DNA from: Tenacibaculum sp. MAR_2010_89
GTDB lineage: Bacteria; Bacteroidota; Bacteroidia; Flavobacteriales; Flavobacteriaceae
DNA length: 64,000 bases
Assembly: GCF_900105985.1 (NCBI RefSeq)
Contig: NZ_FNUB01000004.1
Coordinates: 471,501-535,500, forward strand
Reading direction: 5' to 3'
Shown here: positions 4,116 through 37,727 of the stretch, in pieces
Layout of the letters: each line of letters starts with the position of its first letter
How positions within the stretch are numbered: position 1 is the stretch's first letter
Position numbers and translations under genes: made by a program
Notes under the pieces: model-generated
The model's database searches: none
What the model saw: the letters and a program-made list of their open reading frames with translations, nothing else
Told to the model about the DNA's origin: nothing

Positions 4116-5912
4116 ATGTCAGATTTATTAAGAGGTGGGCAATTCCTAGTAAAAGAAACTAATTGCGAAGATATATTTACTCCTGAAGATTTTTCTGAGG
4201 AGCAGAGAATGATGAAAGAGGCCGTTATGGAATTTAACGATCGTGAAATCATTCCACATAAAACTCGTTTCGAGGCTAAAGATTATGCTTTAACTGAAGA
4301 AACTATGCGTAAAGCTGGTGAATTAGGTTTCTTAGGAGTATCTGTTCCTGAAGCTTACGGAGGCTTAGGAATGGGCTTTGTTTCTACAATGCTTACTTGT
4401 GACTATATTTCTAGTGGAACTGGATCTTTTAGTACTGCTTTTGGTGCGCATACTGGTATTGGTACTATGCCTATTACCTTATACGGTACTGAAGAACAAA
4501 AACAAAAATTTGTTCCTGCTTTAGCAATGGGTGAGCGTTTTGGTGCTTACTGTTTAACTGAGCCTGGTGCTGGATCAGATGCAAACTCTGGAAAAACCAC
4601 TGCTGAATTAACAGAAGATGGTAAAAACTATAAAATTAACGGTCAAAAAATGTGGATTTCAAATGCAGGTTTTGCTGAAATCTTTATCGTTTTTGCTCGT
4701 ATTGGTGATGATAAAAACATTACTGGTTTTATATTAGAATATGATAAAAACAACCCTAATGGTGTAACATTAGGTGAAGAAGAGCATAAATTAGGTATTC
4801 GTGCTTCTTCAACACGTCAAGTATTTTTTAATGATACTTTAGTACCAGTTGAAAACATGTTATCTGTTCGTGGTGGTGGATTTAAAATTGCCATGAATGC
4901 GTTAAATGTAGGGCGAATTAAATTAGCTGCTGCTTGTTTAGATTCTCAACGTAGAATCATTACTGAAGGTGTAAAATACGCTAACGAACGTAAGCAATTT
5001 AAAACTCCTATTTCTGAGTTTGGAGCTATCAAATCTAAGTTAGCTGAAATGGCTACTAATGCATATGTTGGTGAATCTGCATCATACAGAGCTGCTAAAA
5101 ACATTGAAGATAGAATTACTATTCGTGAATCAGAAGGAAATACTCATCAAGAAGCTGAATTAAAAGGTGTAGAAGAGTATGCTATAGAATGTTCTATTTT
5201 AAAAGTTGCTGTTTCTGAAGACGTACAAAATTGTGCTGATGAAGGAATTCAAATTTTTGGAGGTATGGGATTCTCAGAAGAAACTCCTATGGAGTCTGCT
5301 TGGAGAGATGCTCGTATTGCTCGTATTTATGAAGGAACTAATGAAATTAACAGATTACTTTCTGTTGGAATGTTAGTTAAAAAAGCAATGAAAGGTCATG
5401 TAGATTTATTAAATCCTGCTATGGCTGTTGGTGAAGAGTTATTAGGTATTCCTTCTTTTGATACACCTGATTATTCTGAATTATTTGCTGAAGAGAAAGA
5501 GATTATTGGTAAATTAAAGAAAGTATTCTTAATGGTTGCTGGTGCTGCTATCCAAAAATTTGGACCAGAATTAGAGCAACATCAACAATTATTAACAGCT
5601 GCTTCAAATATTTTAATTGAAACATACATGGCAGAGTCTGCTATTTTGAGAACTGAGAAAAACGTGAAACGTTCTGGTGAAGCTTCTCAAAAAGAACAAA
5701 TTGCTATGACTCAATTATATTTATACAATGCTGTTGACATTATTACTAAAAATGCTAAAGAAGGAATCATTTCTTTTGCTGAAGGTGATGAGCAACGCAT
5801 GATGTTAATGGGATTAAAACGTTTTACAAAATATGCTAACTACCCTAATATCGTTGAATTACGTAATATAATAGCAGAAAAATTAAAAGCAGAAAATAAA
5901 TACTGCTTCTAA
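4116..5912 (+). CDS. Acyl-CoA dehydrogenase (long form)
   Basis: A 598-residue flavoprotein, much longer than the 380-residue short/medium-chain enzymes. It resembles VLCAD-type proteins with an extra C-terminal helical domain. The N-terminal helical domain contains FSEEQRMMKEAV. The middle beta domain contains YCLTEPGAGSDANS and KMWISNAGFAEIF, which contact FAD and substrate. The C-terminal domain carries QIFGGMGFSEE and YEGTNEINR. It is the last gene of the operon and introduces the double bond that the fusion enzyme upstream then hydrates. A hairpin with a T-run follows at about 5986. Confidence 0.93.
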   Translation: MSDLLRGGQFLVKETNCEDIFTPEDFSEEQRMMKEAVMEFNDREIIPHKTRFEAKDYALTEETMRKAGELGFLGVSVPEAYGGLGMGFVSTMLTCDYISSGTGSFSTAFGAHTGIGTMPITLYGTEEQKQKFVPALAMGERFGAYCLTEPGAGSDANSGKTTAELTEDGKNYKINGQKMWISNAGFAEIFIVFARIGDDKNITGFILEYDKNNPNGVTLGEEEHKLGIRASSTRQVFFNDTLVPVENMLSVRGGGFKIAMNALNVGRIKLAAACLDSQRRIITEGVKYANERKQFKTPISEFGAIKSKLAEMATNAYVGESASYRAAKNIEDRITIRESEGNTHQEAELKGVEEYAIECSILKVAVSEDVQNCADEGIQIFGGMGFSEETPMESAWRDARIARIYEGTNEINRLLSVGMLVKKAMKGHVDLLNPAMAVGEELLGIPSFDTPDYSELFAEEKEIIGKLKKVFLMVAGAAIQKFGPELEQHQQLLTAASNILIETYMAESAILRTEKNVKRSGEASQKEQIAMTQLYLYNAVDIITKNAKEGIISFAEGDEQRMMLMGLKRFTKYANYPNIVELRNIIAEKLKAENKYCF

Positions 5913-5985
5913 AAATATTTACTCGAAAGAGTATAAAAACCTTCTTTAACTTTCATAGGTTTTAGAATTTAGTTGTTTGTTTAAA

Positions 5986-6018
5986 AGATCGTTAAATTAG
6001 TTTTTGACGGTCTTTTTT
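5986..6018 (+). terminator. Intrinsic terminator of the beta-oxidation operon
   Basis: An 8-bp stem AGATCGTT/GACGGTCT with two G-U pairs, a 12-base loop and a following T-run, located 74 bases after the acyl-CoA dehydrogenase stop. Confidence 0.65.
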
Positions 6019-6030
6019 CTTATAAATATT

Positions 6031-6038
6031 TATCTTTG
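6031..6038 (+). promoter_or_regulatory. Promoter -7 box for the rhomboid protease gene
   Basis: TATCTTTG fits TAnnTTTG and lies 62 bases before the start codon. No good TTTG -33 element is seen at 19-20 bases upstream. A small hairpin TATGGG/CCCATA follows in the leader at about 6041-6062. Confidence 0.45.
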
Positions 6039-6099
6039 AATATGGGTTTTACATAGCCCATAAAATCATTGGAAATAACTAAAAAAACAAATACAAATA

Positions 6100-6945
6100 A
6101 TGCCAGATATTGGAACTGTCGGATTACTTATATTAATTGCTAATGGCTTTGTTTCTTATCAAGGTTTTGAAAATTGGCAATTTTTAAATACCTATAAATT
6201 TCAGGTTGACAAAATATTAATCAACAAAGATTATAAAAGGCTAATAAGTTCTGGTTTTTTACATGTAAACTGGACTCACCTTATCTTTAACATGTTTAGT
6301 TTATATTCTTTTGGAGCGAGTTTAGAACTTCGATTAGGATCTATTTACTTTGCTTTAATATACTTTACTAGCTTACTTGCAGGGAATTTATTCGCTTTAT
6401 TGATTCATAAAAACCATGGAAAGTATAGTGCTGTAGGTGCTTCTGGAGCTGTTTGTGGAGTTATATTTGCTTCAATAGCTTTAATTCCTAACATTCGAGT
6501 AGGTATTTTATTTTTACCGGTATCAATTCCTGGTTGGTTATTTGGTCTTTTATACATTAGCTATACAATTTATGGTATTAAATCTAATAATGATAATATA
6601 GGGCATGAAGCTCATTTAGGAGGAGCAGTAATAGGAATGATTACAGCAATTATAATTAGCCCTAGTTCATTAACCCAAAACTACATCCCTATTCTACTTT
6701 CTCTTGTACCAACATTAATCTTTATCTTTTTTATTTTGGTAAAACCTCATTTATTACTCGTTGATAATCCTTTTAAAACTCAAAAAAAGCCTCAAACTAT
6801 TGATGAGAAATACAACGAAGAAAGAGCACTAAATAAAAAAGAATTTAATCTTTTACTTGAAAAAATCCATAAAAAAGGTATTGACAAACTAACTGCAAAA
6901 GAAAAAGAAAAATTAGACGAATACTCAAAAGCAAATAGAAAATAA
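6100..6945 (+). CDS. Rhomboid family intramembrane serine protease
   Basis: A 281-residue polytopic membrane protein with about six membrane segments. The rhomboid landmarks are visible: the HxxxN-like motif in HVNWTHLIFNMFSLYSFG, the catalytic serine in VGASGAVCG, and the catalytic histidine in IGHEAHLGGAVIGM. A cytosolic, lysine-rich C-terminal tail of about 60 residues follows the last segment. It cleaves substrates within the membrane. It stands alone between a terminator and a convergent Lrp-family gene 5 bases away, so context gives no substrate. Confidence 0.9.
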   Translation: MPDIGTVGLLILIANGFVSYQGFENWQFLNTYKFQVDKILINKDYKRLISSGFLHVNWTHLIFNMFSLYSFGASLELRLGSIYFALIYFTSLLAGNLFALLIHKNHGKYSAVGASGAVCGVIFASIALIPNIRVGILFLPVSIPGWLFGLLYISYTIYGIKSNNDNIGHEAHLGGAVIGMITAIIISPSSLTQNYIPILLSLVPTLIFIFFILVKPHLLLVDNPFKTQKKPQTIDEKYNEERALNKKEFNLLLEKIHKKGIDKLTAKEKEKLDEYSKANRK

Positions 6946-6950
6946 TAATT

Positions 6951-7403
6951 TTATAAATCAAACACTGTAGTGTCTTTAAAAGAATTCATAACAAATGAGC
7001 TTTGTATAGTTGAGATTCCTTCAAATACCGAAAGTTTCTCGTTAATTAATCCTTGAAATTGGTTCATATCATTTACTGCTACTTTTAATAAGAAATCAAA
7101 ATTACCAGATACATGGTGACACTCCATTACTTCTGGAAGACTTAAAATATTTTCCTTAAAAGAATCAATCAACTCTTTTTGATGTTTGAATAATGTAATT
7201 TGACAATAAGCTATTATTTGTTTACCAATAAGATTTCTATCTAATAAAGCAACATATTTTTTTACATAACCACTTTGCTCTAACTTTTTAATTCTTTCAT
7301 AGGTTGGTGTTACCGTTAAGCCAATTTTTGTGGCTATTTCTTTCGTATTCTGCTTTGCATTTTCTTGCAAATGCATTAGTATTTCTCTGTCTATTCTATC
7401 CAT
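6951..7403 (-). CDS. Lrp/AsnC family transcriptional regulator
   Basis: A 150-residue protein with an N-terminal AsnC-type helix-turn-helix (DREILMHLQENAKQNTKEIA, then VTPTYERIKKLEQSGYV) and a C-terminal RAM (ligand-binding alpha/beta) domain from about residue 65 (YCQITLFKHQ, VSGNFDFLLKV). Such proteins sense amino acids and related small molecules. It is divergent from the histidine decarboxylase gene across a 167-base AT-rich intergenic region, so it could regulate that gene. This is inferred from position only. Confidence 0.9.
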   Translation of the reverse strand: MDRIDREILMHLQENAKQNTKEIATKIGLTVTPTYERIKKLEQSGYVKKYVALLDRNLIGKQIIAYCQITLFKHQKELIDSFKENILSLPEVMECHHVSGNFDFLLKVAVNDMNQFQGLINEKLSVFEGISTIQSSFVMNSFKDTTVFDL

Positions 7404-33570: not shown

Positions 33571-33645
33571 CGGGATGTAGCTTAGTCCGGTTAAAGTGCT
33601 GGTCTGGGGGACCAGAGATCGGAGGTTCGAATCCTCTCATCCCGA
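33571..33645 (+). tRNA. tRNA-Pro, anticodon GGG
   Basis: A 75-base cloverleaf with acceptor stem CGGGATG/CATCCCG and discriminator A. The anticodon stem CTGGT/ACCAG encloses CTGGGGG, giving anticodon GGG. The T-arm contains GGTTCGAATCC. CCA is not encoded. A TAnnTTTG box lies 20 bases upstream. The accessory-looking genes begin right after it; no direct repeat of the tRNA 3' end was seen downstream. Confidence 0.94.
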
Positions 33646-33682
33646 CTTTCAACTCCTCTCTTAAATTCTAAAAATCAATAAT

Positions 33683-34465
33683 TTAAGATATATTACTTGA
33701 AGGAGGAAGAATAAGTTTGTTTAAAAACCTTTCTTTAAATCCAATAATATTGGGGTTCGTTTGATCAAGGTCAAATTCTTCATTCACTTGCTCTCCACTT
33801 GCATATTGCCTCAAAAAAACTGGTATTGATGAGTTTTGTATTAATTTAGGCACTGCAAAATTCTCATTCCATGAAGGCCATTTTTCAGGAGAACTGTGAT
33901 ACCTAGCAATCCATAAACCATAGCATGTTATTTCACCTTTAATTAATATTGAAAATGTAGTATTATCATGATAATTTGCATAAACACATGGAAGAATATT
34001 TACAGAATTTTCACTTTTTTCCTTACTATAGGAAATTAAAGTCTCTGACCAACCTCTATAGTACTCTTCAGATATGGAGCCATTACTTCCACTTACATTT
34101 CCTTCAACATCTAAAAAAAAGAAAAACTCACTCCCTTGTGACTTCCAATAATTGACAGTAAAGGTAGAAAAAAGATCATTTACTCCTTGCTTAGCATCTG
34201 TTACCCCCTGTGAATAAGAACCTCCTACATGGTTTGTATGCCTTGCAATAGGTAGTAGTTTTATATTATTTTCATGTAAAGTATTATTTTCTAAATTATG
34301 CGAATACTCCACAGGGTAACCAGTAGTAAAATACCTTCCCCATGCAATTGGCATTTCATTATAATAAGAATATACTTTATCTATTAAATCATTTGCGGGT
34401 TGAGAACTGTCTACAATTTTAAATGAACCTTTGTTAATGTTTGATTTTATCATCTTTTTATTCAT
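33683..34465 (-). CDS. Glycoside-hydrolase-like protein (DUF1906/Rv2525c-like)
   Basis: A 260-residue protein with no signal peptide. It resembles the Rv2525c-like, GH25-related TIM-barrel family: an early FKIVDSSQP strand, WGRYFTTG, the acidic strand FFFFLDVEG (putative catalytic DxE), YYRGWSETL, ILPCVYANY, LWIARYHS and a late FLRQYASG. This family includes exported lysozyme-like proteins, but here no export signal is seen. Its start codon lies inside a perfect 31-bp inverted repeat. Recognition is by pattern only. A second in-frame Met is at codon 5. Confidence 0.55.
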   Translation of the reverse strand: MNKKMIKSNINKGSFKIVDSSQPANDLIDKVYSYYNEMPIAWGRYFTTGYPVEYSHNLENNTLHENNIKLLPIARHTNHVGGSYSQGVTDAKQGVNDLFSTFTVNYWKSQGSEFFFFLDVEGNVSGSNGSISEEYYRGWSETLISYSKEKSENSVNILPCVYANYHDNTTFSILIKGEITCYGLWIARYHSSPEKWPSWNENFAVPKLIQNSSIPVFLRQYASGEQVNEEFDLDQTNPNIIGFKERFLNKLILPPSSNIS

Positions 34466-34622
34466 GTCTCTTTTTTATAAGAATAGTTGATCTATAAACT
34501 AATTAATTGGTGAAACAAAACGAAGCATAGTTAAAAAAAATACTCAAAATCTAGTTTTTTAACACGTTAAAACTATTTAAATTTACAATAAATCAACTAT
34601 TCTTATAAAAAAGAGACATGAA
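34461..34622. repeat. Perfect 31-bp inverted repeat around a 100-base spacer
   Basis: The left arm 34461-34491 is the exact reverse complement of the right arm 34592-34622. Each arm, read outward, contains ACTATTCTTATAAAAAAGAG, then ACATGAA, so each carries the same leader and an ATG. On the left the ATG starts the glycoside-hydrolase-like gene. On the right it opens a frame that stops after four codons (ATG AAC GTT TTT TAA). The spacer 34492-34591 holds weak promoter-like boxes in both directions (for example TAAATTTA at 34578-34585). Confidence 0.9.
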
Positions 34623-34853
34623 CGTTTTTTAATTAAGTATGGACGTAGCAAAATCACCATACACCTATAAATTTTTCTTTTTTGACACTTAAATTTAGTG
34701 CTTTGTAAACTTAAGTCACATAAAATAAATTGCTAATGCAAGCCTACTTACGAAAATCCTCACGGACTTTCTATCTGTGATTTATTTATTAAATTTAGTG
34801 TTTAAAATACGCAACTAATCTTACACAAACACTTAGTGCATACATAAAAATCG
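34623..34853 (+). other. Non-coding stretch before the HEPN gene
   Basis: No gene is seen. Related short words recur: AAATTTAGTGCTTTGTAAA at about 34692, AAATTTAGTGTTTAAAA at about 34793 and ACACTTAGTGCATAC at about 34830. A locally GC-richer piece (34735-34780, with CTACTTACGAAAATCC and TCACGGACTTTC) looks like a remnant of something else, but I cannot name it. Confidence 0.4.
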
Positions 34854-36155
34854 ATGAATAATAATCATATCAGATATCTTAGTCAAAATCACATTCTTTT
34901 TAAAGAAGCAATAATTGCATTTTCAAAAGAAAGAGCCGAAAAGGCTTCTACCTTAGTTAAATTATATAAAACAACTGCAGACAAAAGAATTTATGGTTAT
35001 TTAGTTCTAGATTTCAGTTTGTCAGAAGATATTGTTTGTGGTGATTTAACAATATTTAAATCTGAAAAAATAGATTTTGATTTAAAAGACACTTTTGGTC
35101 AACAAATATCTTGGACATATATATCAGCCGTAAGAATGCCCGAGTATGTAAATTTTCTTAATTCATCTTTATATACATTAGCTTTAAGTTCAATTTGTTC
35201 ATTTGCTTTTGAACGACCAGTATATTCAGCAACCGAATACACATATGAAAAGCATTTGGAAAAAAAAGCTAGCTTAGAAGAGTTAAAACATATTGGAATG
35301 TCATTCCCTATTCTTTCCTTGGGAAATGACGGTACTGAATCAAGAGTTCATTCTTCTATAATTTCTCAATGGATAAAAAATTTCAAAGAAATATATAAAG
35401 TAGTAAACACGTTTTCTGAAACTGATAATTCGAACTCAAAGCTAACTTTCTATTCTTTTTTTCAAATAATGAGATTGGTTCAATTATCTCTTCAAAATAA
35501 AAAAAATGATTTTGATTTATCCTTTAGTTTATTGATAGCTGCAATTGAAAGTGCAGCTACATTTTACTCTATGCCTATAAGCCCAACAAAACCAAAGGAG
35601 CATAAACAATGGTTGAAATTAAGAAAAAGTGGAGATCCAATAATTAATAATCTAGCAAATAAATATGAAGAGTTATGGGCTAAATTTTCGCAAGTAGAAA
35701 AAGACTCTCAGCTATCCTCTAGGTTTATAAAGTTTATTTTTGAATGCGCTCCCAAAGAGACTTGGGAAGAAACTATTGATAATGATTTGTTAAGAGATGG
35801 GATTAACTATAGACAAAAATACCCTCACGAAGTAAGTCTCCAGTCTGAATTGACTCCTTTTACATTATCTGATGAACAGCTAGAAGAGGTCATAAAAAAG
35901 ACTTATTCATATAGATCAAATTTTTTTCATAAAGGAATATCAACCCCTCATCAAGAGCATAAAAATTCGAATAGAAATAGATTTTTTGAAAAGACACTAA
36001 ATATGTCCCGATACAATAAAAAAAAGAAAGAAACTCATCTGAACATTGAATCTTTATATAATTTACACGCAAAATACGAATTAATGAGCTGTATTGCCCG
36101 AGTTTCGATAACTGAAAATGCAAAGCGTACTACAACAAAACCTAAACTGCCTTAA
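34854..36155 (+). CDS. Uncharacterised protein with C-terminal HEPN-like domain
   Basis: A 433-residue protein. The C-terminal half looks like an ApeA-type HEPN domain: helices with FDLSFSLLIAAIESAATFY, then the motif YSYRSNFFHKG at 351-361. This contains the HEPN RNase signature R-x4-H (Arg354, His359) followed by Gly. The N-terminal 190 residues are mixed alpha/beta and match nothing I know. HEPN proteins often act in toxin-antitoxin or phage-defence systems, cutting RNA. No partner nucleotidyltransferase or antitoxin gene is adjacent. It lies between a tRNA-linked variable region and the nag locus. Confidence 0.6.
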   Translation: MNNNHIRYLSQNHILFKEAIIAFSKERAEKASTLVKLYKTTADKRIYGYLVLDFSLSEDIVCGDLTIFKSEKIDFDLKDTFGQQISWTYISAVRMPEYVNFLNSSLYTLALSSICSFAFERPVYSATEYTYEKHLEKKASLEELKHIGMSFPILSLGNDGTESRVHSSIISQWIKNFKEIYKVVNTFSETDNSNSKLTFYSFFQIMRLVQLSLQNKKNDFDLSFSLLIAAIESAATFYSMPISPTKPKEHKQWLKLRKSGDPIINNLANKYEELWAKFSQVEKDSQLSSRFIKFIFECAPKETWEETIDNDLLRDGINYRQKYPHEVSLQSELTPFTLSDEQLEEVIKKTYSYRSNFFHKGISTPHQEHKNSNRNRFFEKTLNMSRYNKKKKETHLNIESLYNLHAKYELMSCIARVSITENAKRTTTKPKLP

Positions 36156-36191
36156 AACTCAATTTAACCAAACCGTTGGCAAAATGTAAAC

Positions 36192-36231
36192 TACACAACA
36201 ACATCATTAAAATTATTTCATTGGTTGTGTA
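36192..36231. terminator. Possible weak hairpin between convergent genes
   Basis: An 8-bp inverted repeat TACACAAC/GTTGTGTA with a 24-base loop lies between the HEPN gene and the convergent kinase gene. It has no clear T-run, so it is only a candidate terminator. CCGTTGGC just upstream may be a cassette-type remnant. Confidence 0.3.
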
Positions 36232-36246
36232 TCCTTCATATTTACT

Positions 36247-37125
36247 TTACACTACCTCTTTTAAGAAGAGCCTATCTTCTTTAATAGATTCAATAAAAGC
36301 TTTCAAAGGTCTCCTTATGAAGTTTTCGGGAGATCTCATTTTTCTTTTTCTTAGTTCTTCATTAATAATATCTCTTGCATGATATCCTACAGAGCCAATA
36401 AAATAAAGGGGGACTTCATTTAATTCGTTCTTATAATTAACTAATTGTTTATCTATAAAGTTCCCTATACAAGAACTTATCATTTCTTTTGCGTAAGGAT
36501 GCTCAATATTCTCAAATAAAAAACGTGCAAATTGCGCTAAATATTTATTAGGCATTTTTGACCCATAGAGTTTTGATAAAACCATATCATCATCTAGCTT
36601 AAACTCTTTTTCCAAAGAAAACTTAAGGTCTTCTGGTAAACTTCTATAATAATAACTTTTTAAGAGTTCTTTTCCTAAATGATTACCACTTCCTTCATCC
36701 ATTAAGATGTAGCCCATTGCTTTTACTTTTTGTTCAATTACTTTTCCATTAAAAAAACAACAATTAGACCCAGTACCCAATATGCAAACCACCGAAGGTT
36801 TACTTGAAGCAGCAAAAACAGCTAACATTAAATCTTCTTTAATAGCAATTTTTGATAGGTTGGTAAATTTTTTCTCAAAAATGTTCTTTATTTTATCACT
36901 CCCTTTTTTATTATTACACCCTGCTCCAAAAAAGTAAATAGTTGTTACTAACTTTTTATAAAACGATAATTCGCTACAGTTTTCAAGAATATTTTCTATA
37001 TCTTTTTTCTTTAAAACAGAAGGATTCACCCCTTTTGTTCTAATTCTTCTTACTATATTATAATCTAGGCTTTCTAACAAAATCCAATCGCATTTTGTTG
37101 ACCCACTATCTGCAATTAATATCAT
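36247..37125 (-). CDS. N-acetylglucosamine kinase-like protein (BadF/BadG family)
   Basis: A 292-residue ASKHA-fold kinase. The N-terminal phosphate loop is LIADSGSTKCDWILLE, the second ATP motif is ILGTGSNCCFF, and the region KAMGYILMDEGSGNHLGKELL is typical of bacterial and eukaryotic GlcNAc kinases. It should make GlcNAc-6-phosphate. It is the last gene of the minus arm, 5 bases after the LacI-family gene, so pathway context supports an amino-sugar substrate. Confidence 0.85.
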   Translation of the reverse strand: MILIADSGSTKCDWILLESLDYNIVRRIRTKGVNPSVLKKKDIENILENCSELSFYKKLVTTIYFFGAGCNNKKGSDKIKNIFEKKFTNLSKIAIKEDLMLAVFAASSKPSVVCILGTGSNCCFFNGKVIEQKVKAMGYILMDEGSGNHLGKELLKSYYYRSLPEDLKFSLEKEFKLDDDMVLSKLYGSKMPNKYLAQFARFLFENIEHPYAKEMISSCIGNFIDKQLVNYKNELNEVPLYFIGSVGYHARDIINEELRKRKMRSPENFIRRPLKAFIESIKEDRLFLKEVV

Positions 37126-37130
37126 TTTAT

Positions 37131-37727
37131 CTAAGAAACTTCTAACTGTAAATTATAATTTTTGATTTTACTAATCATATTACTTACTAAATCTTTACCT
37201 AATTTAAGTCCGTTATTAGACTGCTTTAACTGCGTATTTGTATACACAACATTATCAACCATTTTATTAATAACTATTATTGGTAAATGTCTTTCAGAAA
37301 GTTTGATCAGATATTTATTATCTTCAGCATGGCGTTCAGGAAATAATGAAGGTGATATAATTAAACCATCAATAATATTTTCAGATAATAATTTTGTGTA
37401 CGTAATTTCTTTTTCTGGGCTATTACACGTTTGATAAACCATAATTCTATGTTTTTTTTCACATGTTTCTTCAGTAATACCTACTAATAAGTTAGAAAAA
37501 AAATCATTTTTTAAATCAGGTAGTATAACTCCAATAATAAAGTTCGTTTTTCTTTTTAAATTCTTAGCAAAAAAATTAGGCCTGTAGTTTAATGACTTTG
37601 CTATTTTAGAAATCCTTTCTTTAGTTATACTACTAATTTCATGGCTATCATTTAATGCCTTAGAAACTGTTGACACTGATACTCCCGATTTTAATGCTAT
37701 TTCTTTTAATGTTACGTTATAATTCAT
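37131..37727 (-). CDS. LacI family regulator with an internal deletion
   Basis: A 198-residue protein, while the family is usually 330-345. Residues 4-50 are the intact LacI headpiece (VTLKEIALKSGVSVSTVSKAL, SLNYRPNFFAKNL). The first part of the sugar-binding domain follows (NFIIGVILPDLKNDFFSNL, IIDGLIISPS, LPIIVINKMVDNV). Near residue 163 it jumps to what looks like the family's C-terminal end (QLKQSNNGLKLGKDLVSNMI, compare the usual TTI-x-Q-P...G-K). About 140 residues of the effector domain are missing with the frame kept. DNA binding may persist, but ligand response is doubtful. Confidence 0.8.
   Translation of the reverse strand: MNYNVTLKEIALKSGVSVSTVSKALNDSHEISSITKERISKIAKSLNYRPNFFAKNLKRKTNFIIGVILPDLKNDFFSNLLVGITEETCEKKHRIMVYQTCNSPEKEITYTKLLSENIIDGLIISPSLFPERHAEDNKYLIKLSERHLPIIVINKMVDNVVYTNTQLKQSNNGLKLGKDLVSNMISKIKNYNLQLEVS

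Follow-up and report, generated by a model that had tools for sequence, protein, structure and literature searches.

The window—the whole stretch of 64,000 nucleotides from Tenacibaculum sp. MAR_2010_89 that was analysed—carries near its middle a short insert with two genes, bordered by a tRNA gene and an ATPase-like gene:

33571..33646, plus strand: tRNA-Pro(GGG), bordering the insert on the left
33683..34465, minus strand: gene for a GH25/Rv2525c-like barrel protein of 260 (or 256) amino acids, found in one of 97 genomes of the genus (its own)
34854..36155, plus strand: gene for a 433-residue protein without a known family; its start lies 14 bp past an attC-like site
36247..37125, minus strand: BadF/BcrAD-type ATPase-like gene, bordering the insert on the right

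In Rfam searches, the tRNA alone attains the gathering score. The region was compared in two relatives (L117, L120): in G002 the tRNA-Pro and the BadF-like gene lie 77 bp apart, and in G067 they enclose another island, some 5.3 kb long. Hence, positions 33647-36246 are an insert at a place where DNA was taken up before. Neither insert gene occurs in any of the 96 other genomes of the genus searched, and the 433-residue gene is present in one of 97 genus and one of 397 family genomes, each time its own. Further right, positions 37131-37727 encode a LacI-family regulator of 198 amino acids that stops inside the sugar-binding domain; in three relatives its length is 192-198 amino acids.

The GH25-like protein matches Pfam GH25 at E 1.4e-4, which is under the family cut-off, and its predicted model (pLDDT 89.8) finds its best fold matches in 1SFS, GH26 enzymes, and Rv2525c. 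Its family counts 30 proteins in the protein collection, the window's own cluster included. Homologues with DNA context were found neither by peptide patterns in genome contigs and viral contigs nor by tblastn in phages and plasmids. For the 433-residue protein, Pfam, PADLOC, and NCBIfam all come up empty—PADLOC is likewise without a match for the GH25-like gene—and its predicted model (pLDDT 46) is unusable. Seventeen relatives of it are in the protein collection, one of them from Leeuwenhoekiella.

Between the two genes lies a perfect inverted repeat, whose parts are as follows:

34461..34491, minus strand: left arm, in which the GH25-like open reading frame has its leader and first ATG
34492..34591, no strand: spacer of 100 bp, not matched by the profile to the middle of a cassette site
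34516..34548, minus strand: best Bacteroidota-type promoter-like match, 9 of 10 positions at a spacing of 21, towards the GH25-like gene
34592..34622, plus strand: right arm of the same sequence, whose ATG runs into a stop after four codons

The initial annotation had described this repeat as perfect over 31 bp, with one leader and start codon in both arms, and this description holds. The arms are exact reverse complements, and if extended inward past one mismatch they gain three further pairs, so that 34 of 35 nucleotides (97%) are paired. In 300 dinucleotide shuffles of the surrounding 2 kb (spacers up to 300), the longest perfect arm is 15 bp; hence, the repeat is far beyond chance. ATGAA is present in both arms, and the right one goes on CGTTTTTTAA, which reads M-N-V-F-stop. 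The left ATG, which had been taken as the start of the GH25-like gene, does open the reading frame of the window. However, 19 of 20 aligned relatives (the near-identical P0001 aside) begin at residue 5 of this frame, and therefore translation of the gene may mainly begin elsewhere than at the ATG in the arm. Residue 5 (34453-34451, minus strand) is invariant in all 22 alignment rows; as to N-terminal extensions, P0001 bears the same MNKK as the window and P0015 another short one.

Within its genome, the repeat stands alone. The next longest arms in the window are 16 bp, with spacers of 0, 1, and 8, and 462,505 sampled bases of the genome hold 20 other inverted repeats of at least 16 bp, every one with a spacer of at most 12 nt—including one with a 30-bp arm and a spacer of 0—and none with a spacer beyond 12 nt. 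The search for further arm copies that had been proposed earlier finds, across the genome at up to three mismatches, only the two arms themselves. The 25-nt arm core matches three other places in 166 genus genomes (own genome, G071, and G113), all at three mismatches, and its reversed control likewise has three matches; viral contigs have none. Among the matches listed from a DNA search of the same 166 genomes with the repeat region (34455-34630; five candidates scored in each genome), there are only pieces of about 20-70 bp, the best non-self one at E 2.2e-5, and these short matches are taken as A+T-rich noise. A miniature transposable element (MITE) with 31-bp terminal inverted repeats would agree with the size of 162 bp and the long terminal repeats, but the single copy and the lack of a direct 3-9 nt target duplication at its flanks make this highly improbable.

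The spacer was scored against what we take to be the Bacteroidota promoter consensus. The match towards the GH25-like gene is equalled in 10 of 2000 mononucleotide shuffles; the opposite direction gives 6 of 10 positions, and outside the spacer, matches of 8 of 10 occur on both strands. Such a match would be expected of an invertible promoter, the reading put forward first in the initial annotation: a recombinase would flip 34492-34591 and thereby turn the GH25-like gene on or off, perhaps against the rightward 433-residue gene. Perfect arms around a short spacer with one promoter-like match directed at the gene in the present orientation suit this idea—inversion would point the match away—and a passage in PMC11892184 gives inverton arms of 10-40 nt. 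However, a linked recombinase, which the same annotation had proposed to look for, did not turn up: 57 of the 60 window reading frames of at least 100 amino acids (three overlapping ones left out) hold no Pfam domain of a tyrosine or serine recombinase or of a transposase, and the nearest tyrosine recombinase on the contig matched by TIGR02249 is about 97 kb off. The arm also has no recombinase-type dyad (best 6 of 8, equalled in 460 of 1000 shuffles), and neither the arm nor a comparable repeat recurs in the searches above. We hence regard a switch as very unlikely here.

The arms also bear on the RNA. A leader transcribed from the right folds at −55.4 kcal/mol (z −7.8), and none of 200 shuffles is as stable. 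As a likely consequence, also under the history favoured below, a transcript coming from the right would form a 31-bp stem hiding the leader and the first ATG, and a promoter in the spacer would yield an open leader. A second reading is that of a selected insulator hairpin: the repeat might be kept perfect so that read-through transcripts of an acquired gene are not translated, with the open form supplied by the spacer promoter. The stable stem over leader and ATG and the position of the promoter-like match speak for it; the second in-frame methionine, which is the usual start in the family, is not covered by the stem, and selection for insulation seems unlikely to us.

It had also been suggested that the repeat arose by inverted duplication with subsequent loss of the right-hand gene. 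The first half of this proposal is supported, as the leader indeed looks copied. For the second half, blastn detects no part of the GH25-like gene past the arm in 34592-34860, which instead contains two other features:

34674..34717, minus strand: IS110-family end joined to the left of the cassette site; the remaining insertion sequence was not found
34720..34839, plus strand: attC-like cassette recombination site, its R'' side replaced by the IS110 end

This site lies 97 bp to the right of the repeat and matches the site profile at E 9e-17, with a core of CACTTAG in which the G of GTT is absent. A DNA search of 59 genomes with 34380-34860 as the query shows 34720-34832 to be a dispersed repeat, present in 34 of them (own included; 31 of 36 in the genus and 3 of 23 others), often in same-strand clusters and with eight strong copies in the own genome. 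Its plasmid matches are confined to two Tenacibaculum finnmarkense records. Both the own genome and G035 have IS110 copies with an intact 323-residue transposase frame (PF01548, PF02371) that adjoin cassette sites, and one additional copy in the own genome adjoins no recognised site. The copies at L078 (~6023-7247), L077 (~6006-7240), and L082 (~4880-6107) carry a noncoding stretch of about 216 nt ahead of the transposase, and those in L078 and L082 adjoin attC-like sites at the identical position; presumably, target choice is guided by an RNA of the element. In addition, four sites of the own genome are followed by a common sequence, GACCCGTCCT...AAGGCTACATAA (near L077 12617, L079 5022, L080 4875, and L081 4915), which is perhaps the end of another mobile element. 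To the left of the GH25-like gene, no second IS110 end or half-site was seen, and the profile search for a site after the 433-residue gene (GTTGGCA, 36175-36181) was negative.

In relatives, sites of this kind form long arrays. The set considered here comprises 224 sites in 24 loci of nine relatives, with the loci picked because they held such sites and the sites found by a motif grammar that requires AAC and GTT; the array loci are L083-L086 and L178-L197 in relatives, and L077 in the own genome. Of the 224 sites, 221 have an L''-L' gap of 77-82, and the other three have gaps of 90, 99, and 99. Within every locus all sites point to one strand, and the single site of L189 is on the strand opposite to the remaining G033 sites. 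In 166 of 196 pairs of neighbours, the 4-mer just ahead of AAC pairs in full with the 4-mer that follows GTT in the previous site; the mean is 3.62 of 4 positions as compared with 1.8 in random pairing. Full R''-R' complementarity is found in 28 of 224 cases within a site and in 22 of 196 with the next one. This pairing of R'' with the previous R' reads as the trace of cassette circles exchanged at an integron-type core.

The arms of these sites are imperfect. The fewest L''/L' mismatches in any of the 224 is one—perfect pairing occurs in none—and 496 of 575 mismatches consist of an A where a G is needed, hence a mismatch in the top strand and a G.T wobble in the bottom strand. A consensus fold computed with RNA energies from 28 diverse sites (29 picked, the L189 site left out) has no pairs for the top strand and 20 for the bottom strand, 11 of them with two-sided changes, and the middles of these sites vary widely. 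Across the order, a sequence-only profile has matches in 117 of 395 genomes and 64 of 108 genera (E 0.001 per genome), whereby weak single matches among the 117 may be false.

Tyrosine recombinases of 371-397 amino acids precede arrays and point into them. Among five measured loci, the distance to the nearest array end with a detected site is 372-2387 bp in four and 10,756 in the fifth; the same test at L192 and L064 gave no recombinase frame. All nine recombinases tested fall under the integron integrase cut-off TIGR02249, and two of the nine reach that of NF040815, which is named XerA/integron integrase. One aligned to IntI4 has 24 residues where IntI4 has 67, and in the others the match to TIGR02249 is interrupted at roughly this point (175-181 to 233-240), which we take to be the location of the IntI-specific domain. 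By these alignments, the array recombinases lack the stretch that holds this domain. A passage in PMC9668308 treats the domain as defining. As for the distribution of integrons, a passage in PMC8618304 counts Bacteroidota among the carriers, and the text on IntegronFinder 2.0 in PMC9024848 mentions a complete integron in Salinibacter where earlier only In0 elements were known from Bacteroidetes. For one Tenacibaculum genome, integrons are given as absent in a passage of PMC10013915. Among the matches listed, titles and abstract openings of open-licence literature hold no description of such arrays.

The arms of the inverted repeat share one element with these sites:

34476..34489, minus strand: L' box CAACTATTCTTATA of the left arm
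34594..34607, plus strand: L' box CAACTATTCTTATA of the right arm

This 14-mer is exact in both arms, at their inner end and with the outward orientation of attC. Of the 224 array sites, 90 have it as their L' box, and most of these belong to one genome (G012). When 45 L' variants were searched in 464 kb of sampled own DNA, a sample that does not include the other cassette sites of the genome, none was found beyond the arms and the site at 34720, as compared with one in the reversed control; of 463,370 31-mers outside 34401-34900 none holds an L' variant, and 25 14-mers elsewhere in the sample come within one mismatch of one. Set against 59 sites with their 118 ends, the arm has a score of 16, which is reached by none of 300 shuffles and none of 1000 genomic 31-mers. 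The L' comparison is post hoc, made once a weak match had been noticed.

Other properties are less site-like. No GTT/AAC core is found at the R' and R'' positions of the repeat, and its L''-L' distance is 104 by coordinates. A GTT at 34624-34626, reached in the profile alignment through a 9-nt insertion, was considered as an R' core; it is followed by TTTT and was set aside, since the 15 commonest R' 7-mers have A or G where it has T. By profile, neither arm rises above background, with nhmmer giving E 4.8 and 9.8 in the window. With filters off, cmsearch gives the repeat 9.6 bits as against 9.1 bits for a match within the 433-residue gene, and on the 464 kb at default filters eight other matches of 9.1-13.0 bits are listed, with the repeat not among them. 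The unrelated spacer is no objection to descent from a site, as the middles of sites vary so widely.

From this, we infer a history in which the repeat is a decayed cassette site, the arm with the GH25-like leader having been copied onto the opposite one. An attC-like site with an imperfect hairpin would once have adjoined the GH25-like gene and would have lost its R' core, so that the L' box was now followed at once by the leader of the gene and its first ATG. Template switching within a hairpin during replication is known as quasipalindrome correction; such an event might have copied the leader-bearing arm over the other one and left the two identical. The side of the GH25-like gene should have been the donor, because a leader and an ATG make sense only there. 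The exact L' box, the neighbouring site, the absence of the insert from relatives, and the stable fold of the leader RNA count in favour of this history. Given the missing core, the gap of 104, and the background profile scores, we hold this descent at slightly below an even chance. It comes nearest to the earlier suggestion that the repeat is one end of a mobile cassette: the neighbouring site, the insert absent from relatives, and the L' box in the arms agree with that suggestion.

The main rival dispenses with the site. Replication template switching might have produced a plain inverted duplication of the GH25-like leader, with the likeness to L' a product of chance in A+T-rich DNA. This would account for an arm that contains the leader and ATG of the gene as well as for background profile scores and a spacing and cores unlike those of a site. 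It leaves to coincidence that an exact 14-mer shared with so many array sites and with none of the other sampled 31-mers occurs here, in site-like orientation and 97 bp from a real site; we consider it a doubtful but serious candidate. Descent from a cassette site can also be put more broadly, a version that we offer tentatively and well below even chance: the repeat would be a palindromised site of an undescribed integron class found widely in the order, with an XerA/IntI-like recombinase devoid of the IntI-specific domain, and the loss of strand asymmetry together with a leader at the R' position would be one way in which sites die.

Overall, the best explanation is that a cassette region has decayed here and left a one-off palindrome rather than a switch; the repeat itself is probably a dead structure. 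It cautions against reading each long inverted repeat of Bacteroidota as a switch. The arrays are the larger discovery, as they provide DNA evidence of ongoing cassette capture in this lineage, with an integron-type crossover and a recombinase devoid of the domain regarded as defining IntI. This raises the question whether the IntI-specific domain is required for recombination of folded sites, or whether there are other solutions—for instance, G.T wobbles that stabilise the bottom strand only.

Among known systems, quasipalindrome mutations by template switching are alike in that imperfect hairpin arms are made identical by copying, whereas here the ancestral imperfect state is not seen. Bacteroidota invertons likewise have inverted repeats that enclose a segment of about 100 bp ahead of a gene; they differ by their linked recombinase, arm family, and dyad. 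The IS1111-attC group, as described in part of PMC11187229, resembles the present case in an IS110-family DEDD transposase inserted near one attC-like end. However, the elements here have their longer noncoding region (about 216 nt) upstream of tnp, as in the IS110 type and unlike IS1111, the sites belong to a Flavobacteriales-type host, and only the end of the insertion sequence is left in the window. A further related system is the integron. The window site is broken in comparison with attC, and the arrays depart from integrons in a strand asymmetry that stems mostly from G.T wobbles, in recombinases that are transcribed towards the array, and in the lack in these enzymes of the stretch that holds the IntI-specific domain, along with scores below the family cut-off. 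The arrays are nevertheless integron-like in their one-strand sites with AAC/GTT cores and a bottom-strand consensus hairpin, in the complementarity of R'' to the previous R'—as for a crossover at the R' core—and in the recombinase at the array head.
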